Shown here: positions 12,847 to 36,946 of the stretch, piece after piece
Layout: each line of letters begins with the position of its first letter
Position numbering within the stretch: position 1 is the first letter of the stretch
Origin: Mesostigma viride
Lineage: Eukaryota > Streptophyta > Mesostigmatophyceae > Mesostigmatales > Mesostigmataceae
Reading direction: 5' to 3'
Length of the DNA stretch: 64,000 nucleotides
NCBI GenBank assembly: GCA_009746045.1
Contig: RPFO01000065.1
Span: 8,201,241-8,265,240, forward strand
Program-made: the position numbers and the translations under genes
Notes under the pieces: generated by a model
Seen by the model: only the letters and a program-made list of their open reading frames with translations
Database searches by the model: none
Told to the model about the DNA's origin: nothing

Positions 12847-12869
12847 TGCCTGAAAAACGCGGTCGCTCA

Positions 12870-14400: not shown

Positions 14401-14405
14401 AGCGC

Positions 14406-17317: not shown

Positions 17318-17538
17318 TATCTTTTTTTCGCGCGAATTTGGCGTCCGATCGCGTATTTTCGAGCTAATTTGGTGTCATAATGCTTAATTCATGTCAATTT
17401 GAGCGTACATTCCACATCGAGAGGCTTGAAAGTTAGTAATTCATGTAAATTTTACGTGGAGAGACTCGACATCATCCTAACCTTTGTATTAACCATAGGA
17501 CGAGCATTGCCAGCGCATGTCCAAGTGCTAACTTTCCC

Positions 17539-18135: not shown

Positions 18136-18196
18136 CTAAAATCGAGTTAGTAGAAATCGGACTGCCAACCGTGAAAAATCAAAACACTCTACATAC

Positions 18197-20724
18197 CAGA
18201 ATTCACTCGCAGATTTTTTCTTACCCTTTTTGGCCTTTTCCTTCGACCTCTGCTCGCAGGTAGACCCCGTCTGGGGGTGGGGGGCAGGCTCCGGGGCGGG
18301 TTTGGCGGGCTCGGCAACCTTGGCAGTCTTCGCGGTCTTGGGTAACTTCTTGGAAGCAACGCGCTCCTTTCCCCCGTCCTCCTCCTCTCCGCCGCCATCC
18401 TCCTCCTCCTTCTCCTCCTCATCGTCCGAATCTGAAAGCACAACTTCTTTTCGACGCCGTTTCTGAGGCAGGGCAGGCTTGGGAGGCTTCCCCACCTTGG
18501 CCGATTTCTTGGAAGCAACGTGCTCCGCAGCCTTCCCACCCTTGGCGGATTTCTTGGTAGCAACGTGCTGCTCCTCCTCCTCCTCCTCCTCCTCCTCCCC
18601 CTCCTCCTCCTCAGCATCGTCGTCCTCCTCCTCCTCCTCCTCCTCAGCATCGTCGTCCGAATCAGCCACTGCCACAACTGGCTTACGAAGCTGCTTCTTC
18701 GGTACCTGAGAAATGGCCAGAGTCGGCGGGGGAACCCGAAGCTGCTTCTTCGGTACCTGAGAACTGGGCAGAGGCGCCGGGGTGGGCAGAGTCGCCGGGG
18801 GAACCCGAAGCTGCTTCTTCGGAACCTGAAAAACGGGCTGCGACGCGGCAGGCTTGGAAGGCCCACCTCCATCATCCTCAACAAGTGACACGACTGCCCG
18901 TCGAGTCACTTGAGAAGCGGGCTTCTTCGCCGCAGGCGGATCCGAATCACCTTCAGGCCCCGTCCTCTGTTCGGCCTGCTGCGTTCTGACCTCGACGGGG
19001 GTCTCTCCGCGGTTAGACCCTCCTGCCGGACCTCCATCCCCTCCATCCCCTCCCTCCAACAACTGTTGGTCATCCCTCTCCACCACGGCGGACGATCCCC
19101 CAGCTTCGTGGGAAGCTTTTCGCTTCTTCGCCCTTCCGAGCCTAGGCCCCCCATCACCTTCCCCCTGTTCAAGCCGCTCCCACAATTCACTCCCTTTCCC
19201 GATCCTTTCCACTATCTCTTGAAACCCCTTAATCTCCGTCTTGGTACCAAACACGATCACCATCGGTTCGAACCTGGAGAAAAAGTCGTGGGCGCAAGCC
19301 TTCAGCACATTATCGTACATCCCGCCCGGTTGGGGAATGGACGAAGCTGTCGGGCAAGGACCGAACGCCCACCACCCTCTCTGAAAGTTACTCCACTTAT
19401 CACCCCAAATGTTCGCCAAGTTCAGCAGGCTCAGGCACGGAAGGGACCTGCCCAAGGGAAAGGGGCGGGCTGAAGCTGAGGCAACCTCGCCTGCCACCTG
19501 CTTGACGAGCGACTTGTCATCATCATCACCGTCTAGTTCCTGACAGCAAAACCAGACCCGGCGACGGCCCCAGTCCACACTCTGCCACTCATACTTCACG
19601 TCCCATTCCTCCTCCTCCTTCGCCTCCTCCTCCTTCTTCGCCTCCGTCTCCTTCCCCTTCCCCTTCCCCTTCCCCTTCTCCAGCCCCTTCACCGGCCCCT
19701 TCATCGCCGCCTCCTTCACCCCCCCTTCGAGTAATCCAACTTTTGGAGCGTACTTCCTGAACGCTTCCGGAGCCAAAAGTGCCAAACCCACCGTCTTGTC
19801 CTCGCTCTCTTTTAGCAGAATCTCCTGAAAGTCGATCTTGCCACTACTGAGATCCTTTCTCGGAATCCTCAGATGTGCGGCGTGTTTTTTGGCTTTAAGA
19901 AGGTAGGCGATGTTCCTCGTTATGATGACGGCCACATCCCAAAATTGCCGGTATCTGGCCACAATCTCCTGCCTGCCGACCGGCCGAAGGAGAGGATGGA
20001 GATTGAAGACGAGTTCGAAAATATGAGACGCCACAAACTCCTTGCCCTTTGCGTCCTTGCATTGCGCTTCCAGCGTCTCATCCTCCTTGAATCTGGCGCA
20101 AATGGTCAGCCGCAGGCACTCCAGCACATCCTTGGCGAACTCCACCAACTTGGTGAGCTTTTCCGGTCCAACCTGGCAGCTCATGATGCAATCGATCACG
20201 GCGTCCATCATAGGAAGGCTGGCCAAGTTCCTGAAAGCGGTCCAAGAGACCTTCTGGCCTTTCTTCTCCCCCTCTGCATTCGCGAATTTGCACCTTTGCA
20301 TCATCACCTCCTCAGGCGCGGGTTTCGTTGAGGCAGGATCATCAGTCTGCTCCTGTGTCAGACGGAGAAACGTGTTGGCCAGCGTGCGACTGTAAGCGGA
20401 ATGCACTGAAGCAATGCTGTGGGCCGGCTTTTTCTTTCCTTCTGCTTCCTCCTCGTGTACATCCACCGCTGCCGGCTCCACATTCCCTTCCCTTCCCCCC
20501 GCTTGCCGCATAGCCGGGAGGATGTACGTGAGCAGATTGGTGTAGTGGCCATCCGCAATATAGTGGCCCTTCCCACGCGTGACTTTGCCGTATAGATATA
20601 GCTTGTTGTAGTTCCACACGTCAAGCAACGCCTGGCCCAGCGTACGATCCGCCACGGCTAAGTCCTCCGAATTCGCCCCCTTGGCGATGTCGAACAGCTT
20701 CTCCAGCTTGCCGGTCAGCACCGC
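18197..20724 (-). CDS. Divergent transposon gene, large exon of unknown function
   Basis: An open exon of about 842 codons, bounded by a 3' splice site (GATGTCGCAG at 20,725) and donor GTATGT (18,196). The N-terminal 320 residues look globular (LGQALLDVWNYNKLYLYGKV, AIASVHSAYSRTLANTF, IFELVFNLHPLLRPVGR). A Lys/Gly/Glu-rich hinge follows (KGKGKGKETEAKKEEE), then a second globular part (WWAFGPCPTASSIPQPGG, DFFSRFEPMVIVFGTKTEI). A long disordered tail closes it, with three VPKKQLR(V/K)P repeats, acidic runs (poly-Glu/Asp) and KKSAKxGK repeats, suggesting nuclear or chromatin association. No enzyme motif is recognised, so I give no function. Confidence 0.6.
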
Positions 20725-20982
20725 CTGCGACATCAATTAACATCGAGCGAGCAACGACAAAACTCAGTCATAAAAGGCGAGGGGTATAGCTGCGGATAGA
20801 CCCTAACAAAATTCGAAAAAGAAACGGCCGACAATACGCAACGAAAATTCCAACAAAAAAAAGGAGAGGGTCTAGCTGCAGCGAGACCCTCGCAAAAAAC
20901 TTGAAGCGCACACAAAAAACAACCACGAAAATTCCGAGGGTCTACCCGCAGCTAGACCCTGCCAAAATAGATAGCTTACATC
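20725..20982 (-). other. Intron with three palindromes
   Basis: Donor GTAAGC follows AAAGAAGAT (exon end near 20,983) and acceptor GTCGCAG is at 20,725. This intron of about 258 nt contains palindrome copies at 20,781-20,804, 20,868-20,890 and 20,938-20,960. Confidence 0.65.
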
Positions 20983-22150
20983 TTCTTTTGCCTTAGGTAG
21001 ATTTCGAAGCTCACTCCACGACGGGAGCAGGTCGCCACCCTTGAGAAGAATGACGTTCGTACCCATGTAACCACCACGGAATTTCCGCAACAGGTCCTGG
21101 AAGGCGTGCTCCGCCTCCTTAGGAGTACTTTGCGAAATTGGACTCCGCCCCACCCTCGCACATCATTGCCCGAACCTCTCCCCACCCGCCATCCGGCCCC
21201 CTGAGAAACGACTTTAACCCCTTAAAGTAGTGGTTCCCATCCACCACCGCGTACCGGAGAACCAGATACGGTACCGGTACCCGTTCCTCAAAAAATTTCG
21301 GATCGTAGGACTTCATCGCAGTATTGCACAGCAGGTTGAAAACTTGCCGACTGCCCTCGATCTCCTGAGGCAAAACTGCGGCCACCTCGTCCACCTGGCG
21401 TAGGTACGCCACTCAAGTCCTCTCGCAGGAAAGAGGTGGTGGACTCCGTGTTAAGCCACACGTCGACTTCAGTATCCGAAAGGGGCCGGAAGTACCTGGA
21501 CCCCACATCCTCCGCGTCAATCTTGGCGCCGTGGTAATGCTTCAGCCACTTGACGAAATCCGGCATGCACAAGATTTGCTTGTCGAACAGGTCAGGTTGA
21601 GATTCGGCAAGCGCCTGGAAAGGGAACTGCCAGACCGGGACAACAACCTTGAAGTGCAAGGCGTTGTCCCGCGCATTGAGGAGAATGCGGGCCGTTCTCC
21701 TTAATGGTTTCAAGGTTTAAACGCCGCTGCCTCAAAGCCTCTGGCAAAATAAGCGCGTTGACCGTCTGGATCCGCATACTGAAACATCCGGTCTGCTGAA
21801 AATCGGCCGGCCGAATCCAACGCGTTTCCCTGAGAGAATTGGCCTTCCGGATGTTCTGGTCCCTGACCTCCTTGTTCGAGTCGACCTTTTTCGAAGGCTT
21901 CCAGCTTTCAATGATAGGGTCGGTGTCCGGGTTCCCACTGCTCGTGAGCACCCCCTCCTTAAAAAGCTTGTTGAGTGACCGGAGCAGCTCAAGAAAGGGG
22001 GAGAACTCGGGCCAGTTTGGCAGGTCATCGACGTCCGCCATCCGCCTACTCGAGCAGTACTTGAGCATATCCTTCACCAGCGCGAACACGGCGTCATGAC
22101 CAGGTAACTTCTTCTCCACCGTGGCGTCTTCGTCCCCCCCGTCATCCTGA
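20983..22150 (-). pseudogene. Divergent transposon gene, middle exons with frame breaks
   Basis: Coding-like sequence in three minus frames: DDLPNWPEFSPFLELLRSLNKLF and RETRWIRPADFQQ; then HFKVVVPVWQFPFQALAES and DFVKWLKHYHGAKIDAEDVG; then GSRQVFNLLCNTAMKSYDPKFF and FRGGYMGTNVILLKGGDLLPSW. Frames change near 21,690, 21,415 and 21,130 without obvious introns. Either this copy is decaying or the assembly has single-base errors here. No family is recognised. Confidence 0.5.
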
Positions 22151-22289
22151 AGTAAAAAATCGAAAAGGACCGCAGGATTTGCTCAAGTCAGTAATCTTTA
22201 GGCCGACCACGACATCCTGTTCAGGGACGAACAAAGTTCTGTTGGAATAGTACCTTACTGACACTAAACACCAAGTCCCGCAGCCGTCA

Positions 22290-22313
22290 GCGTCTACCCG
22301 CAGCGAGAGGTCT
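22290..22313. repeat. Dispersed palindrome, intronic copy
   Basis: Degenerate copy (CGTCTACCCG / CAGCGAGAGG) in the intron 22,151-22,334. Confidence 0.6.
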
Positions 22314-22334
22314 AAATTTTCACAACAATCGTAC

Positions 22335-22880
22335 CTGTCCAGTTTTCTGCTGCTTCTTGGCCTCCTTAGCCTTCTCCTTCTCCGCCTTCTTCGCCTCCTT
22401 CTCCGCCGCCTTCGCCTCCGCGTTCTTCTTACTGTTGGCCTTTGCCACCGCATTCAGCGCCCTTTTTCCCTCAGCGGCCCGACGACGAAAATCAGCCTTC
22501 ATGAATTTCTCGATCTTGTCAACCTTTGCCTCTGAGTACTCCTTAGGCTGCCACTTGAAATTCTTGGTGGCTTTCGACTTCACCAGATTTGCGAATTCAT
22601 ATGCCAATTCACTCTTAAAGGTAGCGTCACCCAACACCTCCGTATCGAAATCGGCATCGACTTCCGCCTCAAGTCGTGTCAGGTACTTGCGAAACTCGGA
22701 CCCCGCAGGTCCCTCCGAATCGACGCCATCGGGCGGAGACTTAAGCATGATCAGGCCAACAGCAATAATATGATCCTTCGCAACCTTCTTGCGGGAATCC
22801 AGCTTTTCCCTTTCATGCTCAGTCAATGGGGCTTCGCCGCCTTCCCCCCCGCAGTACCCCCAGCGACAGCCCCCGCCTGC
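22335..22880 (-). CDS. Divergent transposon gene, Lys/Ala-rich exon
   Basis: An exon of about 180 codons. It has a globular N-terminal part (DHIIAVGLIMLKSPPDG, FRKYLTRLEAEVDADFD, LAYEFANLVKSKATKNFKW) followed by a long charged Ala/Lys/Glu helix (EAKAAEKEAKKAEKEKAK), probably coiled coil. It ends at donor GTACGA (22,334). The next intron (22,151-22,334) carries a palindrome copy at 22,290-22,313. Function unknown. Confidence 0.55.
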
Positions 22881-23392
22881 ATGACAAAAAAAAACGAACA
22901 AGAAGGGACTTGACCTCAGTTCGATTGTTGCACCATCGTCTCTCTGCGGAGATACCCCTCAGCACGAAAAAAATCACACGAACTCGCGGCGGATGAACGT
23001 ACCTGCACAGCCACTTCTCCCTCAGCGTCTCCCCCATCCTCATCTCCTCCAGCGTTTTCATCCCCCCCATCCTCATCTCCTCCAGCGTTTTCTTCCTCTC
23101 CGGCAGCGCCTGCTGAGGCCAAACCCCCCGCCTGTCAACACCGAATACGACAGCTCATTGGAAATCAAAATTAGTCGACATTTGTATATTTCGCATAATG
23201 CGCTCACTAAAACTTCAGGCGAAATGCAGACATCCGGATATCGTTTAATGCTTACCATTTCCATCTCGAGTCCAGACCAAATACCAGCACTGTCAACAGC
23301 CATCGCCGCAGCCGCCCCCTGAAAAAAGACAACAGATTGGTTGGGGGCACCGTTGAAATTAGCCGAACATGTCAGTCTCAATAAAAGGGTGA

Positions 23393-23414
23393 GGGTCTAC
23401 CTGCAGCTAGACCC
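23393..23414. repeat. Dispersed palindrome, intronic copy
   Basis: GGGTCTACCTG followed by CAGCTAGACCCC, in non-coding sequence between minus-strand exons. Confidence 0.8.
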
Positions 23415-23616
23415 CATGTAAGATGCTCGTGGAAACTCGACGGACAAGCACCCACCTTATCAACCAAGTCTGACAAATTAGGTAAATCCTCCGATACGTC
23501 CCCTGGCATGGAGCCCCCCTGCATGATATGACAGGACAAACCATGAAGGTTGGTCAGCATATAGAGCCCTATTCAGGGAATGGAAACAACCCAAATCGAT
23601 AAACGATATCGGCAAG

Positions 23617-24650
23617 TTAACGTACCGAAACGTAGAACTTCCACCTCCTCAAAATCTTCCCCAAAGGCCATATCGGCACTTGATGGGCTCTCTCCTTTTC
23701 CAGTTGCCGCCTCAATTCCGCCTCGAAGAACAACTCGAGGGACTGCCAATGGCCTCCCGCCTCTAAATCAGACCACTCCGTGTCTGTCTTGGTTCGGATA
23801 CTCTGGAGACAATCAACCAACGAGATTTGATCCAACCATTCCTGGACGACTTCCCGGTATGGCTTATATGTCTGAATAACATGGAAGTCCTCCCGGTGCC
23901 GGAAACTTTGGATCACCTGTCCAGCCCAATCCAAAAAGAAAGCGACCGCTTCCCGCGAAAGGCTGGCGTCCGGGCTGACAAGAAAGTCAGTCCGCCACTT
24001 AACAAAAGATTGCAGTAAGTGGTCTCTTGCCATGTCCAAATGCGCGATCACTTCATGTGCGCGGCTCCTCCAATCCTCTACGTCATTCATTTCTTCCGGC
24101 ACAATTACGATATAGTCACTGTTGGACGTGTCAACAAATCCTTGCCTGACAATATCAAACACTTCATCTTCCGACAGTGAAGCCCTCGAATCCGCTCTCA
24201 TATCTCCAGTCATGAGTTTAAAGAGCTGATGCAACGCAGTGTTTTCAAGGTTTCCATATAGGAAGCCTCGATGCATGTGAAGCCAATGTGGACCTCGAAC
24301 TTTTCAACCTCATCAAAGAGCGTCGACCATATTAAAGGACGACGGAAAGTAACGTCCGACATCTCCTTCAGATTAAGGATGCACGACTGCGCGATCTTCA
24401 AACCTCATACATGTCGTCACCAACGACCCTCTTCCCATGAATGGCTCGCTGTGTGGCTTCGAACAATGCAAGACGGCCAGGCGCGTCGTTCTTCCAAATT
24501 ATGTGTGCCGACTCCGGACGGTCCACGACGACACCGGACTTCTCTGCAAACGTATCTCGCCGAAAGAAGCGGATCAAGCCTCTCAAGCCCTTTTCGGTTT
24601 TACGACTCACCCCAGCCTCCAGACTCAGTCTGAGCCAGGTACTGTTTCAG
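23617..24650 (-). CDS. Divergent transposon gene, exons with a conserved-looking globular domain
   Basis: The main open part (23,617-24,276) holds about 219 codons of normal composition: LFKLMTGDMRADSRASLSEDEVFDI, YIVIVPEEMNDVEDWRSRA, WRTDFLVSPDASLSREAV, FFLDWAGQVIQSFRHRED. Upstream in neighbouring frames (24,210-24,401 and 24,398-24,610) lie SAHIIWKNDAPGRLALFEATQRA and FRRPLIWSTLFDEVEKFEV, probably earlier exons. I do not recognise the domain. Introns on either side carry palindromes (23,393-23,414; 24,743-24,764). Confidence 0.55.
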
Positions 24651-24742
24651 AATGGCCACCGTGGAGGGCTGCAGACAACAAGAGTAAAAAAAAGGCCACA
24701 CATCGTCATCGTCGTCGTCAACAACCTTAACTCCTAGGTCAA

Positions 24743-24764
24743 CGTCTCTCCGCAGCTAGACCCT
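24743..24764. repeat. Dispersed palindrome, intronic copy
   Basis: CGTCTCTCCG followed by CAGCTAGACCCT, between the exons ending near 24,650 and starting at 24,859. Confidence 0.75.
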
Positions 24765-24858
24765 TACGATCAATGTATGGCATAAAATCCCACCTTTCTA
24801 CGATACACACACGCCGTTCAAGCCATCTGAAAATGTACGTCTTACATTAAAAACATAC

Positions 24859-25300
24859 CTGATAATCGACTGAAAATCGTTCGTGAAGAAGGGGTGGGCT
24901 CCCGTTCTCGTCCTTCTCCCCCTCAACTGCCTTCGCAGCCTCCCCTCCTTCCTCGCAGCCTCCTCCATCTTCCTCGCGGCCTCTTCCGCCTTCATCCTCT
25001 CCTGTCCATCTGCAAAAAAGAGCGGCCTCCTCCGCAAGAATTCCCTTCGCTGCCGCCTCGTCTTCTTCTTCGCTCCTCCTTCTGCTTCGCCACCAGGTCC
25101 TGTGCTCCTTCTCCTGGGCAGCCTTTTTTCCTTTACTCCCTCTCCTCCTCCTCCCTCTCCGCCTTCTCCAGCCTCTCCTTCTCCTCCTCTCCACCCTCTC
25201 CCTCTCCGCCTTCTCGATGGCCTCCCTCTCCGCCTTCTCCTTCTCCTTGTCCTTTTGTCGAGAGCCGCGTATTCGTCAGCAAAGCTTGCGGCCATTAGCT
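24859..25300 (-). CDS. Divergent transposon gene, Arg/Glu-rich exon
   Basis: About 145 codons of highly charged sequence (RERVERRRRRGWRRRRGR, EEEDEAAAKGILAEEAALF, GREEDGGGCEEGGEAAK). It ends HERFSVDYQ at donor GTATGT (24,858). Composition suggests a nuclear, nucleic-acid-binding or coiled-coil linker. Several frames are open because of the GC-rich bias, so frame choice rests on the splice site. Confidence 0.4.
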
Positions 25301-25415
25301 AACAAATCGGACAACCGCTTCTTGACGCGATCCCGAACCGGCGATTCCGGGTCTTCAGGCCTCCCGTTAGTCTGATCGCGCTCGTCCTCCTCAACAAGCT
25401 CACTGATAGACTTCC

Positions 25416-25982
25416 TCAGCTTCTGAGCTCTTGGTGCGGTCGTCTTCCTCTACCCACTCGCCGCAGGCTTACGCTTAGACTGAATGCTTGGGGGACGGCG
25501 AGCGGGACGCAGCAGCGGGGACTTGCTGGTGGCGGCGAGCGGGACTTGGGGGAAAGCAGAGCGGGACGGCGAGCGGGTCGCAGTTGCGGGGTTCTTTGGT
25601 TGACGGCGAGGGGGACTTGCGAGAAGGAGAGCGGGACGCCAGGTAGCGGGGGAACTTTGGGCGGGAAGGGGGGACTTGCGGTTCGGCGAACGGGTCGCAG
25701 TTGCGGGGACTTTTGGGGACTTGCGGGGCGGCGCGGGACGCAGTAGCCTCCGGCCGACTTGGGGCGGCGATGGAGACTTACGGGGCGGAAACGGGACGGA
25801 GCGCGAGACGCAGCAGCGAGAGAGGTGGGGGGTATAATTCTGTCCAACTCGCTGGGGGCAAGTTGGACTTGGAGGGCGAGGGGGACTCGGTGGGGGGGAC
25901 CTCGCAAGACTTTTACGGGACCGAACTGCAACGAAGGAAACTCCTCCGTTGCGTTCGGCTCCGGCGAGGTGTTCGACGTCAT
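25416..25982 (-). CDS. Divergent transposon gene, probable first exon
   Basis: The first in-frame ATG is at 25,982 (MTSNTSPEPNATEEFPSLQ). A Ser/Pro/Arg-rich region follows with repeated SPQxPQLRPxRR units from a short tandem repeat. The frame reads to 25,416, where an intron or further exon probably begins. The start lies 125 bp from the palindrome cluster at 26,107, which would be its promoter-proximal region. Confidence 0.4.
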   Translation of the reverse strand: MTSNTSPEPNATEEFPSLQFGPVKVLRGPPHRVPLALQVQLAPSELDRIIPPTSLAAASRAPSRFRPVSLHRRPKSAGGYCVPRRPASPQKSPQLRPVRRTASPPFPPKVPPLPGVPLSFSQVPLAVNQRTPQLRPARRPALLSPKSRSPPPASPRCCVPLAVPQAFSLSVSLRRVGRGRRPHQELRS

Positions 25983-26106
25983 CTTGGGTGAAACGGAGTG
26001 GCCTTGACAGAATCGGAATAGGAGGACGACATCTGCAGAACTATCAAAAAAGCAAGTTTTCACAATGTCATTCAGAATCTGAATCGCCGGCAGAAAAACG
26101 ATGGGA

Positions 26107-26570
26107 GGGGTCTCGCTGCAGCTAGACCCTTTCGTGGATTCTAAAAGGACATTTAGTTTAATGCAAAACTTTGGCGTCTCGCTGCAGCGAGACCCTCACT
26201 TCAAGCAAAAACAAATCATTTTTAGGGTGAGCGTTAAACAAGCAACCTCCCATCATGCAAACATAAAAAAGTATACATTCCTTGGGGTCTCGCTTGCAGC
26301 GAGACCCTAACGTCAAACAAAAAACAAATAATTTTAGGGTGAGCGAAGGAAGCCCCTCCCATCTTGCAAAATTAAAAGTCGACATTCGTAGGGGTCTCGC
26401 TGCAGCGAGACCCTAACACCGATACAAAAACAAATCATTTAAGGGTGAGAAAAGAAAGACCCCCCATCATTGAAAAACATAAAAATTGACATTCCTTGGG
26501 GTCTCGACTGCAGCGAGACCCTAACGTCAATACAAAAACAAAATTCCGAGGGTTCTACCGCAGCGGACCC
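26107..26570. repeat. Cluster of six palindromes upstream of the minus-strand gene
   Basis: Copies at 26,107, 26,173, 26,283, 26,391, 26,497 and 26,549. The clearest (26,391-26,414) is GGGTCTCGCTG directly followed by CAGCGAGACCC, a perfect 22-bp palindrome. Four copies are embedded in a tandem repeat of about 106-110 bp (spacers share CAAAAACAAATCATTT, AGGGTGAG, CCCATC and GACATTC). The cluster lies between the two divergent genes, immediately 5' of the minus-strand gene. Confidence 0.9.
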
Positions 26571-27235
26571 TTACGACCACGTATAAATAATGTGGGGGGG
26601 GAAGCTACGTATAAATCATGTGGGGGGGGATGCTATGTATAAATGCATGTGGGGGGTGGCTGGCATTAATAATTAAATGTGGGGGTGTGATGGCATGAAT
26701 AAATAAATGGGGGGGGTGCTGCCATGAATAAAGAATGTGGGGGTGTGATGGCATGAATAATGAATGTTGGGGGTGCTGGCATTAATAATTAAATGTGGGG
26801 GGGTGATGGCATGAATAAATAAATGTGGGGGTGCTGCCAGAATAAAAGATGTGGGGGTGATGGCATGAATAAATAAATGTGGGGGGTGCTGCCATGAATA
26901 AAGAATGTGGGGGTGCTGCCATGATAAAAGAATGTGGGGTGTGATGGCATGAATAAATGAATGTTGGGGGTGCTGGCATTAATATAAATGTGGGGGGTGA
27001 TGGCATGAATAAATAAATGTGGGGGGGTGCTGCCATGAATAAAAGAATGTGGGGGTGTGATGGCATGAATAAATGAATGTTGGGGGGTGCTGGCTTAATA
27101 TTAAATGTGGGGGGTGATGGCATGAATAAATAAATTGTGGGGGTGTGCTGCCATGAATAAAAGATGTGGGGGGGTGATGCATTAATAATTAAATGTGGGG
27201 GGATGATGGCATGATAAATAAATGATACGTGCGAT
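26571..27235. repeat. Minisatellite, ATAAATAAATGTGGGGGG(T)G type
   Basis: Degenerate units of roughly 27-30 bp with AATAAATGTGGGGGGTG(CTGCC/ATGGC)ATG. G-run length and AATA copy number vary from unit to unit. No coding potential. Confidence 0.9.
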
Positions 27236-29705
27236 CACCCCCCCACATGTATTGATAACGTAGGCATCACCCCCCACGTGTATTAATACGTAGCATCCCC
27301 CCCACATGTATTGATACGTAGCAGCACCCCCCACATGTATTGATACGTAGCAGCACCCCCCACATGTATTGATACGTAGCAGCACCCCCCCACATGTATT
27401 GAATACCGTAGATCCCCCAACGACATGTATTTGATACCGTAGCAGGCAACCCCCCCACATGTAATTGATACGTAGCAGCACCCCCCACACTTATTGATAC
27501 GTAGCAGCACCCCCCACATGTTTGATACGTAAGCAGCACCCCCCCACATGTATTGATACGTCAGCAGCACCCCCCCACGCTGTATATACCGTAGCATCCC
27601 CCCAACTGTATTGATACGTAAGCAGACCCCCCCACAATGTATTGATACGTAGCACACCCCCCCACATGTAATTGATACGTAGCGCACCCCCCCACAATGT
27701 ATTGATACGAGCAGCACCCCACATGTATTGATACGTAGCAGCACCCCCCACGTGTATTGATACGTCAGCAGCACCCCCCACCGTGTATTGATACGTAGCA
27801 GCACCCCCCACTGTATTGATACGTAGCGCACCCCCCACATGTATTGATACGTAGCAGCACCCCCCACATGCTATTGATTACGTAGCATCCCCCCCCCACA
27901 TGTATATTGATACGTATGCAGCACCCCCCACATGTATTGATACGTTGCAGCACCCCCACATGTATTGATACGTAGCAGCACCCCCACGTGATTGATCGTG
28001 CAGCACCCCCACATGTATTGATACGTAGCAGCACCCCCACTGTATCTGATACGCAGCACCCCCCCACGTGTATTGAATACGTTGCAGCACCCCCCACATG
28101 TATTGATACGTAGCAGCACCCCCCACATGATTTGATACTCAGCAGCACCCCCCACATGTATTGATACGAGCAGCACCCCCCACATGTAATATACGTATGC
28201 AGCACCCGCCCCCACGTGCTATTGATACGTAGCAGCACCCCCCCGTGTATTGATACGTAGCAGCCCCCCCCACAATGTATTGCTACGTAGCAGCACCCCC
28301 CCACATGTATTGATTTACAGCAGCACCCCCCCCATGTATTGATACGTAGCATCCCCCCCACACATGTATTGTACGTAGCAGCACCCCCCAATGTATTGAC
28401 ACGTAGCAGGCCCCCCACCATGTATTGATACGTAGCAGCCACCCCCCACCTACATGTCATACGTAGCAGCACCCCCCACGTGTATTCGAACTAGCAGCAA
28501 CCCCCCGACATGTATTGATACGTAGCATCCCCCCACACAATGTATGATCGTAGCACACCCCCCCACATCGTATTGACAACGTTAGCCAGCACCCCCACAT
28601 GTTATTGATAGTAGCCAGCCCCCACCACATGTATTGATACGTAGCAGCACCCCCCGTGTATTGATACGTAGCAGCACCCCCCACATGTATTGATACGTTA
28701 GCATCCCCCCCACACTTGTATTGAACGTTAGCCAGCACCCCCCAACATGTAATTGAATACGTAGCAGACCCCCCCACATGTATTGATACGTTTAGCACAG
28801 CACCCCCCCATTGATTTGATAACGTTAGCAGCACCCCCCACGTGTATTGATACGTAGCAGCACACCCCCACGTGTCATTGATACGTAGCAAGCACCCCCA
28901 CATGTATTGATACGTAGCAGCACCCCCCCCATGTATTGATACGTAGCATCCCCCCCATGTATTTGATACGTAGCATCCCCCACCACAGTATTTGATACCG
29001 TAGCAGCACCCCCCCACATTGTTTGATACGTAGCGCACCCCCCAATGTATTGATACGTGCAGCACCCCCCCACATGTATTGATATCGTAGCAGCACCCCC
29101 CCACGTGTATTGTTACGTAGGCGAAGCACCCCCCACGTGTATTGATACGTAGCAGCACCCCCCACGTGTATTGATACGTAGCAGCACCCCCCCTTGTATG
29201 ACCATACGTAGCCAGACCCCCCCAGCACTGTTATTGATAGTAAGCAGCACCCCCCCACATGTATTGATACGTTAGCCAGCACCCCCCCACGTGTGATTGA
29301 TACGTACGCAAGCACCCCCCACTGTATTGATACTAGCAGCACCCCCCCCATGTATTGATACGTAGCAGCCACCCCCCAGTATGATACGTCGCGCCACATG
29401 ATGAATCACGTAGCAGCACCCCCCCACATGTATTGATACGTAGCGCACCCCCCACTGTATTTTACGTCTGCACCTGGCACCCCCCACGTAGTATTGATAC
29501 GTAGCAGCACCACCTGTTACTGATACGTACGGACCCCATTATTGATACAGTAGCAGCACCCCCCCACATGTATTGATACGTAGCAGCACCCCCCCGTGTC
29601 ATTGATACGTAGCAGCACCCCCCACATGTATTGATACGTAAGAGCACCCCCCACATGTATTGATACGTAGCAGCAACCCCCCCACATGTTATTTGATACG
29701 TAGCA
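27236..29705. repeat. 2.5-kb minisatellite, 29-31 bp unit
   Basis: About 80 units of CCCCCCACATGTATTGATACG + TAGCAGCA (given here in two pieces). The C run varies from 5 to 9 and there are many one-base indels. The long minus frames (INTCGGCCYVSIHVGG-like) are the repeat read through. Units abut without unique spacers, so it is not a CRISPR array. Confidence 0.95.
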
Positions 29706-30420
29706 GCACAATTTTTAGTAGCTACCATCCACGTTGCGGCAAAAGATACCATTTTTTTGTTTCGGCAATAATGAAGATTTCTTGCAAACTATCGTCTATG
29801 CAGGAGGTAGCACGTCCGATGTTATAATCGGCAGGTAGCATGCAAACGTCGAAACGATATGAAGGGAAAAAAGCATCAAACAGGAGCACCGATTAGAAAC
29901 GCAGCAATGCGTATGTGCACATCTACACATTAACCTAACCCAGACCAACAGGCATAGCAAACCTGGAAGGGACCCAGAAACGCCAGCACACATGATCGAC
30001 AATGTGCGAGACCAAGAAACGCTCCTGGCAACAGACTTAAAGGATGGATGCCAGTGTGGATTAGGATCGGCTAAGCTGACTCTCCGAGATGCCTGCAGGT
30101 TTAGCTAGCAACGAAAGAGGAAGCAGATTTTTTATCACTCTTGCTGCTAACCATTAGAGTTCTCTGGATCGGCCAGCGGAACCATGTTGTCGCCAGTGGC
30201 TAATGCATGTTCGTCGGTCGTGCATAGCGTTTGTTTAGTTTGCCGGTTTTTTGATAGAACATTTTAGTTCAGCCTACCATCCAGATGCGGAAAGCATCAC
30301 TCTTTTTTTCGTTGTGCGGCTAAAGGCAGGACAGATTCAAACTTCCGGCACCAGGCAGGTATCAACGTAGGATTTTATAATCCAGCAGGTAGCATGCAAA
30401 CGTCGAAACGATATGGCAGC
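29706..30420. repeat. Two diverged copies of a roughly 150-bp segment
   Basis: 29,706-29,865 and 30,262-30,415 share CTACCATCCA, TGCGGC/AAAG, and an almost exact GCAGGTAGCATGCAAACG + TCGAAACGATATG block (29,830 and 30,380). They are separated by about 550 bp with no supportable gene. Confidence 0.7.
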
Positions 30421-30735
30421 TCGTATCAGCTATGGGGTCTCTCTGCGGCTGCGCTTCTTTTTCGATGGGCGATGGGACGGTCGCAATTCGCAAACGGACG
30501 CGGCGTCACAGGGCTGAACGGTATTGAAAAAATTGGAAACGTGGCATCCTCGTTCCTCCCCACGGAACTGAAAACTGGAAGCGCGGCGCTGGTGCAAAAG
30601 CTCGATCCCATCTTTTGGAACCAAGCTAGCGGATTGGACGACATCCAATATGCCGTCACCCGTGCTTGTGGCCGCAGGTATAAAAAGAGACGACCTCCAG
30701 CCCATTTACCTGGGAACATTCGGATGTTTGGCTGA
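30394..30735 (+). CDS. Hypothetical small ORF in the transposon spacer
   Basis: 113 codons of unremarkable composition (GRSQFANGRGVTGLNGIEKI, NVASSFLPTELKTGSAALVQ, LDPIFWNQASGLDDIQYAV) ending in a basic RRYKKRR. Its start lies in the 150-bp repeat and it overlaps a palindrome half-copy at 30,434. No family is recognised. The frame could be an orphan exon or chance; the minus strand is also open here. Confidence 0.25.
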   Translation: MQTSKRYGSSYQLWGLSAAALLFRWAMGRSQFANGRGVTGLNGIEKIGNVASSFLPTELKTGSAALVQKLDPIFWNQASGLDDIQYAVTRACGRRYKKRRPPAHLPGNIRMFG

Positions 30736-30810
30736 CATCGTTACCATGCGTCAATGTACAATGAGGTTCTGGGTTCGATTCCTGGTGTGGTCATGGAAAT
30801 AAATTTTTTT
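30722..30810 (+). ncRNA. tRNA-derived SINE-like sequence
   Basis: A-box-like TGGCTGACATCG (30,729-30,740) and B-box GGTTCGATTCC (30,772-30,782) lie at tRNA-like spacing. The T arm can pair with G-U pairs, and a T7 run follows (30,804-30,810) as a pol III terminator. The acceptor arms pair poorly, so this is not a functional tRNA. It may be a SINE head or a tRNA pseudogene. Confidence 0.35.
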
Positions 30811-30829
30811 CTGCACATCTACTGAAATC

Positions 30830-31140
30830 AGTCATAGCACCAAACAATCACGCTGCAGCGAGACGCTATAGCCCTGGAGCCGCTGATAAACCTGACATCC
30901 GGTACGTCTTACTATCATAGATTGCCGAACTATATAATAATAATAGTCTATACCACTTTTTCTTGTAAATGATTTACTAAATAATGATTCTATATACTTT
31001 AACATACCATATTATTAAAGTATGTGGAATTTAACCATGCTATTCACAATATATTATAAAATCTTTTGCAAAATATACTGTAATTAGTATATATATTTTC
31101 TGATAAACAATTTTATCAATGCTACTGTGTTATTTTTGTT
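30830..31140. other. A/T-rich spacer
   Basis: Very A/T-rich sequence (TATATAATAATAATAG, TATATATATTTTC) without ORFs, in the spacer upstream of the transposase gene. One palindrome half-copy lies at 30,850-30,866. Confidence 0.5.
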
Positions 31141-31234
31141 ATTCTCGCCATGCAGGTATCTGAGTGTTCTGGGAGAACTAATAAGAGAATGAGCCGCGAA
31201 GGTGAGGAAAACCTGAAATCTTTTCGTCCTTATT

Positions 31235-31494
31235 GGGGTCTCTCTGCAGCTAGACCATTTATAACCACAAGCAATAGCTTAAATTCAAGGGTCTCGCTGC
31301 AGCTAGACCCTCTTTATGGTTGCTATAAAATTAATGAATCAGAAGTCTGTGATTTAACAATCGCACGCCGCAATGAAGGGTCTAGCTGCAGCGAGACCCC
31401 AATCTTGGTCGGGGTATGCTAAGTTCACCACATCAGGTAATCTTTTCGTCTAACGGAAAAAGCCCCTCTAAGGGTCTAGCTGCAGCTAGACCCC
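31235..31494. repeat. Cluster of four palindromes upstream of the transposase gene
   Basis: Copies at 31,235-31,256, 31,288-31,311, 31,377-31,400 and 31,471-31,494. Each is a GGGTCT(A/C)(G/T)CTG half followed by CAGC(G/T)AGACC. The last ends 14 bp before the first in-frame ATG (31,509) of the transposase ORF. Confidence 0.9.
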
Positions 31495-31508
31495 AATCGT
31501 GGTAAAAA

Positions 31509-33074
31509 ATGATACACTTTCGAACTTTGTCTGTAATTGTCGCTTTTCCCAACGATACTCGATTTGCATGGATTTCGTTGTGCCGGTCGTCATGGCATGC
31601 AGCACGCGAACGGGTGGGAGTTTTCGCCCTTGCGTCCGGTCGTCCAGGATTCAGTGCAATTAAGTTGAACACCGGGACGAAGCAGTCAACTGGCGCAAAA
31701 AGGGTTTTCGGAGATGAGAACCAGAATCCAGCGCAGCCTGAAGCCAAGGAAGTCAAGCGGCCGGGAGAATACTCGAAATCAAAGAGGGTTATTGGGGAAT
31801 ATTTCGCTGACCAGGCGTTTGAAGCGGCTCAGGCGATGACAAAACCCGAGGGGCGGGGGCCGGCTTTCGACCAGATGATTGCTGGCTTTAACTCTAGGGC
31901 CGCTGAACTAGGTCACGGGAAGTATCATGAGGAGGCGAAAAAGCTTTACAATCAGGAGCGGATGGCAGAACTGAACAGGTTCTGGGTGGCTCGGATTAAC
32001 GGCTTTTTTGATGGTCTGACCAAAAGCGACGCAGACAGAGACGTCAGGATGGTGCTGATGTCCACGCTTTACTGTGGTGACGACTTGGAGAAGGAGTTTT
32101 CGGCCGCGGAGTTGGAGAACCTGACGGGGATGGACGCCAAGAAGATTCGCGGAATTCGCGCGATACGAAGGCAGCAGAAGTTGGACTACCTCAGACACGC
32201 GCAGGCTCGCAAGGGGCGCCCTTTGCCGCAATTCGTGATTGACGCGATAGTGGACGCGTGGATGCACGATGATGAGTCGCGCGCCTCCTCCCAGATGAAG
32301 GATGTCAAGCGCACTTACAGCAGGGAGGGTCGTGGCAATCACGGGGTGCTCGTCGCCGTTGAGGGAGCGCGCTATTACATGACCTCCAAGGAGGACATGT
32401 ACAATCACTTTCTCGAAAAGCATGCGTACTGGAACAAAAGGAGTAACCAGTATGATAAGGACGTGGGCATTCACGTGGGCTACACGACCTTCTGCAAATA
32501 CGCGCCCGATTGCATCAAGGGCAAGTGGAAGGAGAGGAACCTGTGCGCGTGTGAGAAGCACGTCACCATGCAGTCGGCCATGGGGGCGTGGACCAAGCAC
32601 TCCAATGCGAACCACGGCAAGAACTGCAAGTGTGGCGCGGAGTGTGCGGGATGCTCCAAGTACAGAGAGCCGGACGGTACTTGCGGAATGTGGAAAGCCA
32701 TTCACTCGACGGACTGGATCAAGCACTTTCACTGCCCGGTGTCCGCCGAGACTGACGGCAGGGATAACGGGCTGCGTGAAGGGGGCGGAATGGGCGGGGG
32801 GATGGAAGAGGGGGAGGGGGAAGATGAATGGCGGGGACGGGACCTGGAAGACCTCGACATTTCTGAGAGGCTGGTGGAGGACGAAGATGGGGTGCCGAGG
32901 ACGGAGAGGGTTCACCGCATACTGAAGATGGCGTGTGTGGAGGGGTTCTGTCCTGAGGAATCATGCGGCATCCATAATAACTGGGTGCAGTGTGATCGGG
33001 ACAAGAATTCCACGGAGATTCTGAATTGGTTCAAGTTCGAGATGGTGGAGCAGACTGTGACCCGACGGGTGAAT
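31509..33074 (+). CDS. Transposase gene, exon 1 (DNA-binding, Cys-rich region)
   Basis: 522 codons. A basic N terminus leads to a helical region (YFADQAFEAAQAMTKPEG, MDAKKIRGIRAIRRQQKLDYL). A Cys/His-rich region follows at about residues 335-410 (YAPDCIKG, LCACEKH, CKCGAECAGCSKY) with a further CVEGFCPEESCGIHNNW, probably zinc binding. The layout (FCKYAPDCIKGKW, then a Cys-rich segment, then a DDE core) matches a family I know from animal and algal DNA transposons, tentatively Sola. The exon ends at donor GTGAGT (33,075) in phase 0. The start at 31,509 is the first in-frame ATG and is not certain. Confidence 0.7.
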
Positions 33075-33229
33075 GTGAGTTGGTTTCGATTTTATTTCTC
33101 CGTTAATATGTTGTTGACTTTTTTTTTTGTGACCTATAGCTGCAGCGAGACCCTTTGTGAGTTGCAGTTATCTTATCGAAATGCGATTTTATTGCAAATC
33201 GAAACTGTCTGCGGACCTTTGCGAAACAG
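33075..33229 (+). other. Transposase intron 1 with a palindrome
   Basis: Donor GTGAGT at 33,075 and acceptor GCGAAACAG ending at 33,229 keep phase 0 between the two frames. The palindrome copy at 33,131-33,154 (CTATAGCTG/CAGCGAGACCC) lies inside, after a poly-T run. Confidence 0.6.
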
Positions 33230-34006
33230 GGCGAGACCGATGGCAGGGCGGCGAAGAAGGTGAAGCGGCCCGAGCAAGTCCAAATGAGGTCCACCCCAGC
33301 TGAGCTGCGGGACGAGATTCTTAAGATGTGGGACAAGTTCACCGTGCACTGCTTTACGGCCTGGTCGCAGGCGGATACAATCAAGGATCGGGAGAAGAAT
33401 CTGAGAGAGGGGGACGTGCTCGTGCACGGCGACTGGGCCGAGAACTACGAGAACAGCAGCTACGTCCAACTGCAGTCGCAGTACTTCCACAAGCGCAGCC
33501 ACATCCTGATGCCCATGATCGTGCGTTATCGGCTCAACGGCGAGCTGGAAAAGCGCGTCTTCTTTTTCCTGGGGGATTCCAGTATCAAGCGGGGCGAGCG
33601 CGCACTCGTATACGCTCTTCGCAAGATTCTGGAAACCCTGCGGGTAGAAGTAGGGGTAGAGGTGCGAAACCTGTACATGTGCTCGGACAACTGCGCGGTG
33701 CAGTTTAAGTCCAGGTACGTGATTAACCAGATTAACGGTCTGCTCATGGGGGATCCCGACCTGCAGGCCTTTGAGTTCCACTACATGGGGGAGCAGCATG
33801 GGAAGGGGGAGGTGGATGGTCAAGGAGCGAAGTGCAAGTGCGTCTTGAGGGAAATGCAGAGGATTCCCGAAAACCAGCACATACTTGAGACCCACCAGCT
33901 AGTCGCCTACTTGAACCAGAACTGGCAGGGCGGCAAGACATCGAGCAGGGAGTCGGCCCGCGCGCGGGCCGAGAACGTCACTCGCCACTTCTTCCTTTTA
34001 CCCCCG
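33230..34006 (+). CDS. Transposase gene, exon 2 (DDE catalytic core)
   Basis: About 259 codons. Catalytic candidates are Asp in DVLVHGDWAENY (near 33,430), Asp in NLYMCSDNCAVQFKSR (near 33,685) and an acidic residue in QHGKGEVDGQGAK (33,798-33,830). The HGKGxxDG block is a hallmark of this transposase type. Between them is RVFFFLGDSSIKRGERA. All expected acidic positions are present and the frame is intact. The exon closes at a probable donor GTACGG (34,007). The family name Sola is inference; DDE chemistry is well supported by the motif order. Confidence 0.75.
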
Positions 34007-34079
34007 GTACGGAATTGTGTGTTATTTCAGGTTTTAAGACGTCAACTGCCGCTGTTCTATAAAAATTCAAACCCAATAA

Positions 34080-34419
34080 AGGTATCTCTGCAGAGAGACC
34101 CTATATACTGTCAATGGGTTGCTTTTCTTTTAGGTATGAAATTTCGCTTGTTCTATCGGTATGAAGGGGTCTCTCTGCAGCTATACCCTGTGTCGAATTT
34201 CGATCACTTGATATCTTGTCGTACGTTGTTATTATGATTCGAATGGGGTCTCTCTGCAGCTATACCCTGTGTCGAATTTCGATCACTTAATATCTTGTCG
34301 TACGTTGTTATTATGATTCGAATGGGGTCTCTCTGCAGCTATACCCTGTGTCGAATTTTGATCACTTGATGTCTTGTCGTTATTTTTTTTTTTAAGGGGT
34401 CTCTCTGCAGCTATACCCT
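34080..34419. repeat. Five palindromes in transposase intron 2
   Basis: Copies at 34,080, 34,166, 34,245, 34,324 and 34,396. The last four are GGGTCTCTCTG followed by CAGCTATACCC and sit in a tandem repeat of about 78 bp (GTGTCGAATTTCGATCACTT, TCTTGTCGT, TTATGATTCGAAT). Confidence 0.9.
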
Positions 34420-34489
34420 GTTTTATTGATTTTTGGTCAATTTTGCTAACTTGAACGGTATTCTTTTTGCCCTAACTATTTGATGACAG

Positions 34490-35235
34490 GACGTCGAGTC
34501 CGGCCGACGCGCGGAGGTGAGGAGGTGCCTGGCATCAAGAAGGCGCATTGGTGGCGACTGGACAAGTCCGACCCTGGCCTTTTGATGATTAGGCGCTATT
34601 CCTGCTACTGTCCGCCCTGTTTGGCTGGGCGGTTTGAGGGATGTCTAAGCGAGTGGTCGTTTATCATCGAGTTCAATGATGCAGGAAGCTCGATGAAAAC
34701 TGTCCGTTTGCTGCCACCGAGCCAGCCCAACCCTCCGGTTCGCATGGTGACGCGGGGGGAGCAGCTGAAGGACAAGCGGGAGGCGATGGGCCGGCAGATG
34801 AGACTCCACGACTATGTGGCAGTTCCATCGGACAAGGACACGGATCACGATCCCATCCACCCGTTCTGGTTGGCTGAGGTTGTAAGCGAAGCCGGGCCGA
34901 TCGTGTTAGACGAGAACTTCGAGAGGTGGGTCGAGGGCCGGAACGGACGGGAGAAGGAGCTGTTCCTCGCCGGGAACGGCATTCTTCCCGTTCGGATTTG
35001 GAAGCGGGATAAGCATGACCCCCTGCATTTCACGCTCAACGTTGAGGATTGGCCACCGTCACGCCAGCCCGAGCTTGTGAATTGCTATCTCTGCGTCGCT
35101 CCGGCTCTCCGGCTAGAAGCACGCGTGCGCAGCGACGGAATGTGTGCCGACATCAGGATGAGCAAGGAGCTCGACAAGTGGCTTACTGCGCTGGTGATCA
35201 AGGATGAAGCCCCGGAGGGGCCGGCACCGACTTAA
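34490..35235 (+). CDS. Transposase gene, exon 3 (C-terminal module)
   Basis: About 248 codons to TAA at 35,233-35,235. It contains a Cys pair (YSCYCPPCLAGRFEGCLSEW) and HDYVAVPSDKDTDHDPIHPFWLAEVV, which reads like the beta-rich readout module common at the C terminus of such transposases. LPVRIWKRDKHDPLHFTL follows. A probable acceptor TGATGACAG lies at 34,489, but the exact junction with exon 2 is not resolved: the phase does not close with the obvious donor at 34,007. A palindrome half-copy lies 10 bp after the stop. Confidence 0.6.
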
Positions 35236-35245
35236 ACAAGAAATT

Positions 35246-35265
35246 GGGGTCTCGCTGCGGGTAGA
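35246..35265. repeat. Dispersed palindrome, degenerate copy after transposase stop
   Basis: GGGTCTCGCTG followed by CGGGTAGAC, a partial second arm. Confidence 0.55.
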
Positions 35266-35522
35266 CGACGCCCTAGTTTCGGCTCGTATTATATCTTTAG
35301 AGTGGGGCTTCAGTAGGGTGTAAAAAGGTGGCCGCATATATTGTATATATTTTTCGAGATCTTTCTGAGGTCAAGTTTAAGGGTAGTTGATAATTTTTTG
35401 CGGCCTTCAATTAACAGTTATTTTTTACTGCAACATAATTTTATGCTGTATATTTAAATAATGATAAGGATTTCGATATTTTTTTGCACAATCTATTCGA
35501 CATTTGTTTCTGCATGTCGAGA

Positions 35523-35736
35523 ATTTATTGCTCCACCCCCACAAAAAAAATCGTTCCGGAACTGTTCGAAGCGAATAGCACTGACAGGATTCGAACCCGG
35601 GTCCACCTTAATGTTCGGAGTGAGGTAGGCCAGCCATCATGTTCCGCACTCAAATCTGGCTCGGGTCCGATCCCTCCATTGCTCTTCGCTTCGAACAGCT
35701 CCGGAACAAGTTAGGTGTGGGGTTGGAGCAATAAAT
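35523..35736. mobile_element. 214-bp MITE with an internal tRNA-like B box
   Basis: Ends ATTTATTGCTCCA...TGGAGCAATAAAT. The inverted arms extend about 55 bp through GTTCCGGAACTGTTCGAAGCG with small indels. Inside, on the minus strand, GGTTCGAATCC (35,587-35,597) is a perfect pol III B box within a T-arm-like CCCGGGTTCGAATCCTG. No clear target duplication is visible. It lies in the spacer between the transposase gene and the right-end ORF. Confidence 0.65.
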
Positions 35737-35952
35737 ACTTATTTGCCGGGCGCAGTTGTCATTCCGCCTAGTACAATTGCGTCACTAGTACAATTTTTGT
35801 CTGGGTACGGTACGAACCAATAACGCAATATTTAGTATCTAATCGCCGCTGCTCTTGCTGAATTTTATCCGGAAGCTGAAAAAGGTGTCCGGTGAAGCGA
35901 ATACTAGTGACTGGTGGTCGTGCCCTTCCATTACTCCTTATCGACAAATTTT

Positions 35953-35977
35953 GGGTTCTACCTGCAGTTATAACCCT
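35953..35977. repeat. Dispersed palindrome, most distal copy
   Basis: GGGTTCTACCTG followed by CAGTTATAACCC, a degenerate arm pair. It is the last copy before the right end. Confidence 0.65.
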
Positions 35978-36056
35978 TGCGCGTCTGGCTGTCGGGGTCA
36001 CCAATTTCCTGTCGATTGCAAGCAGCCAACCTTGCCGAAATTTAACACTGTCACAA

Positions 36057-36494
36057 ATGGAGCAGAGCAATATTTTCGGTTCTCAGCATACCTATGTGAT
36101 GGTCGACAAAAATGAGCACGCTGCAAACATCAGAATTGATGTAGAGTTGCTCGGACCTTCTGCACAGTGGGGTGCAGGTGTCATTGCGTTCGGCAATGGC
36201 ATGATCGATCTGGTGCCACCCGATTCAGATTTGAACCCTGCTTACCAATGCGTGCCTGACAATCAGGCGAGAGTGGTGGTGGAGAGCACGGAAATTCCGG
36301 GCTCTCCCAATGTATCAATGATGCGCCTGAGGGCCGAGGCCCAGCAGGAGTTCCTGGCTGCTGCGGAGAACGGCGGGGCCAAGTGGAACACCAAAATGTA
36401 TACAGGCGAGCCTCCCAACTACAGGGGAGACCAGTACCAGGGAGTGTACTCCTTCGGCGATTTTGACATCGACGGATGGGGCACCTTTTTCTAG
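36057..36494 (+). CDS. Small hypothetical protein near the right end of the transposon
   Basis: 145 codons from ATG 36,057 (MEQSNIFGSQHTYVMVDKN) to TAG. A longer frame is open upstream to 35,892 but overlaps a palindrome copy, so I prefer this start. Composition is globular: NIRIDVELLGPSAQWGAGVI, NQARVVVESTEIPGSPNV, GVYSFGDFDIDGWGTFF. No family is recognised. It is transcribed with the transposase gene and might be an accessory factor. Confidence 0.5.
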   Translation: MEQSNIFGSQHTYVMVDKNEHAANIRIDVELLGPSAQWGAGVIAFGNGMIDLVPPDSDLNPAYQCVPDNQARVVVESTEIPGSPNVSMMRLRAEAQQEFLAAAENGGAKWNTKMYTGEPPNYRGDQYQGVYSFGDFDIDGWGTFF

Positions 36495-36878
36495 GCGCAA
36501 TGCCTAAGTTGTCAAATACTCCGACAATGTCAAAATTGCGAATGATAAAATTACGGACATGTGCACATATATGTACTGATTCAATAAAAACTTTCGGCAA
36601 TTTTGTTCCCGGCATTGATAATCAATAGCTGCTAGCAAGCCAAGGACTTCAAAAGTGGCAATAGATCGATGTAGGTCGTCGATAAACTTGTCTAGTCGTC
36701 ATATTTCGGTCGCAAAATTCGTGCGTGGCCTGCAGGCATCGGACAAAGTGCACGCAACAGCAGGAGTCGGTTGAGTTCGAAGCACGGCAGACACAAAATT
36801 TCGGCGCAAAGTCCGTCGGGCGAAAAATTCGCTCGGCTGCCAAATTTTCGGCAAGAATTTCGGCGCAATGTCCGGTTT

Positions 36879-36942
36879 TCGGACGATTGAAATTAGCGTT
36901 TTTTTCTTGCAAAAATCTACCCCATTCCGCGTGGGACCACCC
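36879..36942 (-). repeat. Right terminal inverted repeat
   Basis: The reverse complement begins GGGTGGTCCCACGCGG. It is 64 bp, lacking about 9 bp present in the left repeat (GGCGCATTT segment). Two direct subterminal repeats TTTCGGCGCAA(A/T)GTCCG lie just inside (36,822-36,875). Confidence 0.9.
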
Positions 36943-36946
36943 GACA
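36943..36946. repeat. Target-site duplication GACA, right
   Basis: Second GACA, immediately after the terminal CCACCC. The gypsy reading frame resumes from here. Confidence 0.85.

Follow-up and report, generated by a model that had tools for sequence, protein, structure and literature searches.

A palindrome of 22 bp recurs through most of a single large transposon in a 64-kb window of the nuclear genome of the streptophyte Mesostigma viride (the whole stretch of 64,000 nucleotides analysed here, from contig RPFO01000065.1). The transposon, bounded by terminal inverted repeats (TIRs), is 19,698 bp long, and it shares both its TIR and the palindrome with two other types of element in the same genome. 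We consider it probable, from the arrangement and conservation of its sequence, that the palindrome is a two-fold symmetric site for a dimeric DNA-binding protein that serves the transposon. Such a protein would most likely be encoded by the element itself, and its likeliest role would be the control of chromatin or transcription.

The palindrome, GGGTCTNNCTGCAGNNAGACCC, is a real, non-random signal. A pattern search allowing up to three mismatches gave 20 matches where 0.03 would be expected in the window, a count that none of 100 shuffled sequences reached, and a weight matrix derived from 16 seeds found 24 places scoring at least 8, compared with an average of 0.4 over 60 shuffles of the window in 2-kb blocks. 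The concern raised in the initial annotation, that shuffling might return similar counts by chance, is thereby answered. Its half-site, RGGGTMTMNCYG, matches the window at 39 places, all 39 of them inside the transposon and none outside, and no palindrome was found outside the transposon in the same 64 kb, as the initial annotation had stated. That annotation had also listed 26 copies, and each of these places does hold a palindrome or the half that was named, with starts agreeing within 1-2 nt; overlooked were a full site at 18999 (GGGTCTCTCCGCGGTTAGACCC) and a weaker one at 22936, and what had been taken for a half at 30850 falls within a degenerate palindrome whose first base is 30845. Two copies are perfect, at 26392-26413 and 31472-31493. 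The first of these had been described as a perfect 24-bp unit (26,391-26,414), and the perfect palindrome is indeed present; the end letters of the 24-mer are G and T, hence the symmetric unit is 22 bp. Because they are tandemly repeated, the four copies within a 79-bp array at 34167-34397 and the four within a 106-bp array at 26174-26499 are not independent. One-base insertions (odd centres at 26285 and 26499, and an extra T at 26550) occur in the window copy of the transposon only and are missing from six other copies.

The transposon occupies positions 17245-36942. Its outer 24 bp, GGGTGGTCCCACGCGGAATGGGGT, are perfectly inverted at the two ends, and a 4-bp target-site duplication (TSD), GACA, flanks it at 17241-17244 and 36943-36946; by eye, the TIR and the palindrome are unlike beyond the first GGGT. 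The plus strand encodes a transposase with three introns, whose junctions agree with the public M. viride protein P0001 (100% identity over 73% of the query, reading MSREA-RERV across intron 1). All three introns contain palindromes: four in intron 1 (31202-31602; sites at 31236, 31289, 31378 and 31472), one in intron 2 (33075-33229; 33132) and five in intron 3 (34007-34489; 34080, 34167, 34246, 34325 and 34397). The exons between and after them lie at 31603-33074, 33230-34006 and, for the last, which is defined by its open reading frame (ORF), 34490-35235. A further palindrome begins 12 nt past the stop codon (35247-35268), and another lies 967 bp from the right end (35954-35975), both found by pattern search and by matrix.

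On the minus strand, a second gene has introns that we placed from open frames and GT/AG ends, and five of these putative introns hold seven palindromes. Three are in 20725-20979 (20782-20803, 20868-20889 and 20938-20959), and one each in 22147-22334 (22290-22311), 22877-23002 (22936-22957, the weaker site), 23319-23455 (23393-23414) and 24669-24858 (24742-24763); those at 22290 and 22936 came from the weight matrix and the others from the pattern search. Upstream of this gene, a cluster at 26108-26570 contains six palindromes (26108, 26174, 26285, 26392, 26499 and 26550), including the 106-bp array. The degenerate palindrome at 30845-30866, found by weight matrix, carries two changes that comparison with other copies shows to be specific to the window. 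By the half-site search, only two half-sites in the element stand apart from any palindrome, at 18257-18268 and 30434-30445. The earlier statement that the copies are found only in introns and spacers, with none in exons, is nearly but not wholly right, because a full site (18999-19020, centre CCGCGG, found by both searches) lies in frame, and the solo half at 18257 also lies, within the 866-amino-acid ORF of the minus-strand gene (18136-20736).

Across the 440-Mb genome, the palindrome has 5683 matches with up to three mismatches, against 389 for a reversed-pattern control, and the TIR end has 477 at the same tolerance, against none for its control. Among the matches listed, which come from contig C1 and part of contig C2, there are 56 distinct exact sites, and 55 of the 56 lie within or next to elements of this TIR group; they were placed by alignment, by a neighbouring TIR or by the MITE's own site spacing (see below), part of the 56 having been fetched as DNA. 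The single unplaced site is at C1:7391307. Among placed matches, the palindrome is therefore nearly confined to the elements of this TIR; equal density across the host genome, which the initial annotation had named as counting against its proposal, did not occur there, and we rejected a host-wide motif on the same grounds. A more specific version, in which the transposon has borrowed the site of a dimeric host transcription factor as an enhancer, would fit the dimer-like anatomy and the positions near gene starts and in introns, but the placed exact matches (all except the one unplaced) are in elements and not in host genes, and the motif shifts between transposon families. We regard this as highly improbable.

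Three architectures carry the same TIR and palindrome, with interiors that are largely unrelated: elements of about 20 kb, elements of 10.3 kb, and miniature inverted-repeat transposable elements (MITEs) of about 586 bp. The seven ~20-kb elements examined are that of the window, C1a, C323, C446, C224 (shorter), and C2a and C2b (both read in part). The six 10.3-kb elements have no transposase matches and contain 22 sites each, arranged as two arrays plus one site apart; their similarity to the window element covers the ends, ~0.4 kb within the minus-gene region and, over 30-35 bp, single sites, and the one whose TSD was checked has CGTG. In these elements (L019-L030), the same 22 sites are found in all six copies, and the two arrays, with an alternating spacing of ~57-63 bp, flank long tandem repeats. 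Seven MITE-type elements contain two sites each. Six of them (L002, L003, L016, L017, L018 and one beside C1a) are 585-588 bp long and the seventh, L001, is a variant of 1340 bp. Six of the seven have TSDs of 4 bp, that of L016 being imperfect. As is characteristic of MITEs, they are short and non-coding, with the TIR and TSD length of the larger element. When their interior was compared with the terminal 2 kb of the two types of large element, similarity did not exceed the shuffled level.

The recurrence of sites in all three architectures raises the possibility that they belong to the transposition machinery, as internal transposase-binding or enhancer sites that help to assemble the ends. 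In the MITE, the sites begin at base 134 from one end and finish ~205 bp from the other, which would suit such a role. In the window element, however, ~1.75 kb and 0.97 kb separate the outermost full sites from the ends. Most sites lie far inside, in introns and spacers, and site position varies between architectures, whereas clusters close to the ends are the usual pattern. The many short subterminal binding sites of TnpA in En/Spm, for example, crowd the ends of that element, while the Mesostigma sites run through most of theirs. A part in transposition itself is thus rather unlikely, though it is the strongest of the alternatives. Of the three readings offered in the initial annotation, a transposase-binding site nonetheless comes nearest to what we favour, given sites that recur in three element types with the same TIR, their purifying selection and their anatomy of two half-sites; that a protein binds, and that the element encodes it, is what we infer.

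Selection on the sites is apparent from copy comparison. In the seven ~20-kb copies, with the column majority as reference and the degenerate 30845 excluded, 26 sites show 4 changes in 3880 bases, against 134 in 13227 for non-coding DNA no more than 60 bp away, or approximately tenfold less change (Fisher P 6e-11); variable columns number 3 of 570 in sites and 101 of 1953 in the neighbouring non-coding DNA (P 1e-8). These P values are a guide only, because the copies are related by descent and the counts are not independent events. When the other six copies are instead compared with the window as reference, 24-mers around 27 sites contain 21 changes in 3720 bases, 8 of them at the degenerate 30845, compared with 86/4484 in transposase introns outside sites, 726/43489 in other non-coding or unassigned DNA, and 83/16784 in transposase exons. 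Imperfect sites are kept as tightly as perfect ones. A 34-mer around the intron-2 site at 33132 has 136 matches in the genome, of which at least 100, all among the matches listed, are unchanged. By comparison of copies, then, the palindromic sites are under purifying selection.

Could the palindrome instead be selfish, spreading within these transposons as a unit of ~24 bp in the manner of organellar repeats? The initial annotation had proposed such a proliferating mini-palindrome, and several observations are in keeping with it. By eye, the six flanking bases on each side of non-array copies are not obviously alike; some sites of the 10.3-kb elements match window sites over little beyond the palindrome; and two copies lie in the MITE interior, which is unrelated to the ends of the large elements, the first beginning 2 nt after similarity stops. 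In addition, an insert in intron 1 of C2a brings one extra weak site. The MITE interior and this insert show that units have reached new DNA in the past. Against this, 151 of 156 site-by-copy comparisons could be aligned (5 could not), and in none of the 151 is the site missing, leaving no contrast of filled and empty sites. Imperfect sites are retained as tightly as perfect ones, a related family has diverged sites at corresponding places, and inspection by eye showed no direct repeats flanking the sites. The idea of a mobile unit consequently seems unlikely to us. The C2a insert, about 1.7 kb long and located between positions matching window 31279 and 31282, contains a single weak palindrome (GGGTGTAACTGCTGGTATACCC, 3 mismatches) and has no match to the MITE or to the 10.3-kb element.

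The organellar repeats themselves are instructive here. The PstI palindromes of Neurospora mitochondria are GC-rich, are built around CTGCAG and lie outside exons, though they are mitochondrial and of another sequence. The mobile GC clusters of yeast mitochondria and the LIMP palindromes of Lobosphaera are likewise short and dispersed mostly outside coding sequence. In the cited passages, GC42 clusters are described as sporadically present and constrained as a hairpin (PMC4478555), and changes in the arms of HyLIMP of Lobosphaera mitochondria as usually complementary (PMC4524435). The Mesostigma sites differ in being nuclear and fixed in place, with uncompensated arms and with no presence/absence polymorphism in the 151 aligned comparisons.

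The anatomy of the palindrome is that of two half-sites meeting at CYG-CRG. We compared the arms of 20 copies, after dropping three tandem duplicates from 23 and excluding indel-bearing copies and halves. Within a copy, the arms agree at 180 of 240 positions, compared with 180.6 after re-pairing arms from different copies (P 0.59). Since arms agree no better within copies than between them, it is not their pairing that is preserved; every arm follows its own consensus. T4, T6, C9 and G11 occur in 40 of 40 arms, an invariance that is partly built in because the search pattern for the window's family (family A) contains those letters. The 3' arm has CGG in place of CAG in 4 of the 20 copies.

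This result bears directly on the suggestion, also made in the initial annotation, of a splicing or transcript-pairing element. An RNA-level function, as an intronic hairpin, a splicing signal or a source of small RNA, would be in line with the copies in all three transposase introns and in five putative introns of the minus-strand gene, and by eye the T-C-T...CTGCAG of the site resembles a 3' splice site. Yet changes in one arm are not compensated in the other, sites also occur in spacers, in the 3' untranslated region (3'UTR) and in one ORF, and CGG is tolerated in the 3' arm. We rejected an RNA hairpin or splicing element on the missing co-variation, and a function in RNA is very unlikely overall. 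The lack of arm co-variation, the rarity of solo halves and the absence of any missing aligned site together argue against both hairpins and a spreading mini-palindrome. In the sequences compared, both half-sites are kept together, and independent arms with rare solo halves look like a symmetric site for a protein dimer.

A related transposon family points the same way. Family B, with at least several dozen copies, has a transposase (P0002) that is 51-67% identical by exon, and we read it in one 8-kb stretch, L038. Palindromes occur there at eight places, with seven distinct sequences: three in intron 1, one in intron 2, two in intron 3 and two downstream, the first of which begins 8 nt past the stop codon, versus 12 nt in the window. 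The reversed pattern had no match in L038 with up to six mismatches. In this one stretch, the half-site differs from that of family A at positions 6-7; T is found at position 6 in 40 of 40 family A arms versus 2 of 14 family B arms, 12 of the 14 having G or A. At the sequence level, the related family thus has a half-site of its own at corresponding places. L038 also contains a second dispersed palindrome, approximately ACTCAGTCCTC-NNNN-GAGGACTGAGT, in the spacer upstream of the transposase (1732-1788, 3051-3078 and 3398-3425), and a tandem array of 37-bp units, likewise upstream of the transposase (1-521). Family A also has a tandem array upstream of the transposase, of 29-bp units in the window (26579-29709), with many one-base indels that perhaps reflect assembly error.

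We therefore return to a dimeric protein that serves the transposon. In this proposal, the protein would bind the two half-sites of each palindrome, and would most likely be the product of either the transposase gene or the large minus-strand gene. Binding would most plausibly act in element-wide control of chromatin or transcription, for example by anti-silencing in the manner of the VANC proteins. We consider this likelier than pairing of the ends for transposition because the sites, some two dozen in number, are scattered over introns, spacers and the 3'UTR and are not packed at the ends.

A number of observations weigh against the proposal. First, the sites are not evident throughout the related families: in the one copy of family C (P0003), no match with up to six mismatches was found in 3501 bp comprising introns 2 and 3 and ~470 bp of 3'UTR (intron 1, not identified, being outside the part covered), and in family B the site in intron 2 is a weak one, with 6 mismatches to the family A pattern, a level also reached by one exonic stretch. 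Second, constancy of the sites may have other sources. The invariant letters partly reflect the search pattern, as noted above; gene conversion could likewise keep sites alike, and shared ancestry makes the counts non-independent. For the MITE alone, variable columns (0 of 44 in sites, 29 of 541 outside) do not differ significantly (P 0.16), and the pair of sites in its 586 bp could simply have been carried over. In a test for methylation decay, any excess of C-to-T changes at CG among the copies was slight at most. Third, neither candidate protein matched a known family with confidence. For the minus-strand ORF at 18136-20736, no family in Pfam scored above the cut-off, and one protein search found no match to an outside protein; for the transposase, again no Pfam family passed the cut-off (DUF7869 had E 0.12), no PDB sequence matched and no domain was confident; and the predicted structure of P0002 had a mean pLDDT (predicted local distance difference test) of 37 and was not used.

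Other searches with the transposase and the palindrome were also negative. A profile search of viral contigs found no relatives of the transposase, megablast of 31506-35235 against phages gave no match, and the exact palindrome pattern is absent from viral and prokaryote collections.

Several further features of the window and of the transposon genes were observed. By our reading of the sequence, the transposon sits inside what reads like a Ty3/gypsy-type retrotransposon. Across the annotated junction at 34007-34490, the long open frame of the last transposase exon does not continue the frame of the exon before it; P0001 ends there in a short shifted tail, whereas P0002 continues. A stretch of ~293 bp, tRNA-like by eye, is present in the window copy at 35466-35758 and absent from C1a (alignment break between 35465 and 35759). 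Decayed genome copies of the ORF at 18136-20736 have mostly TGA stops, often four, and few TAG or TAA, the pattern that CGA-to-TGA decay in one lineage would give. Elsewhere in the window, ~40-6000 and ~9740-15700 form a direct duplication with an offset of ~9706, in which the same ORFs start at 2017 and 11771 and identity is 89% without gaps over 2017-6000. An uninterrupted ORF of 3087 amino acids (42632-53724) has an AMP-binding domain (first 1000 amino acids scanned) and a long poly-glycine tract, and is overlapped at its end by a 668-amino-acid ORF that is membrane-protein-like by eye.

Among known transposons, the 4-bp TSD length is shared with Sola2, in which the cited passages describe an AT-rich TSD (PMC3627910), a richness that the Mesostigma TSD lacks. 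The passages available from the Mesostigma genome paper report abundant repeats and do not mention this motif (PMC6947507). In the listed titles and opening lines of abstracts of the open-licence literature on Mesostigma, intron palindromes and dispersed transposase sites, we found no account of such palindromes in a nuclear transposon.

The closest known analogue is the VANC anti-silencing system of VANDAL transposons, which are Mutator-like elements (MULEs); binding in that system removes DNA methylation. As in Mesostigma, a short motif is repeated many times in non-coding parts of a transposon, is confined to its family and is partly arranged in tandem arrays, and it differs between related families, just as the half-site of family B differs from that of family A. 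According to the passages cited, the VANC21 motif occurs in introns, intergenic regions and terminal non-coding parts of Arabidopsis VANDAL elements, related families using other motifs (PMC5735166, PMC10398659); it is 9 bp long, YAGTATTAY, and the main text of the 2017 study nowhere uses the word 'palindrome' (Hosaka 2017, PMC5735166). The full site and the half within an ORF are an exception to such non-coding placement, and the Mesostigma site differs in being 22 bp long and two-fold symmetric, with binding that is predicted only, and in residing in a transposon with a 4-bp TSD. MULEs typically have TSDs of ~9 bp, a length that the Mesostigma element does not share. Pfam and the one protein search of the minus-strand ORF, taken as 847 amino acids, gave nothing above cut-off and thus no VANC-like protein, no VANC sequence having been compared.

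By analogy, we tentatively suggest that these sites may be part of a VANC-like system for anti-silencing or self-activation that arose separately, with 22-bp dimer sites across a giant non-MULE transposon of an early-diverging streptophyte. Site and protein would change together between families, each family opening only its own chromatin, and MITEs would keep the sites to share in this service; we hold this fuller picture to be possible but doubtful. Because the sites are many, short and conserved and differ by family, the binding protein could be found directly, by pull-down. If the sites do recruit an element-encoded anti-silencing or activator protein, then systems of this kind also arose in transposons other than Mutator-like elements, with a different design of site and in a lineage distant from flowering plants, close to the streptophyte base. 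They would then represent a more widespread response by which large transposons meet silencing.

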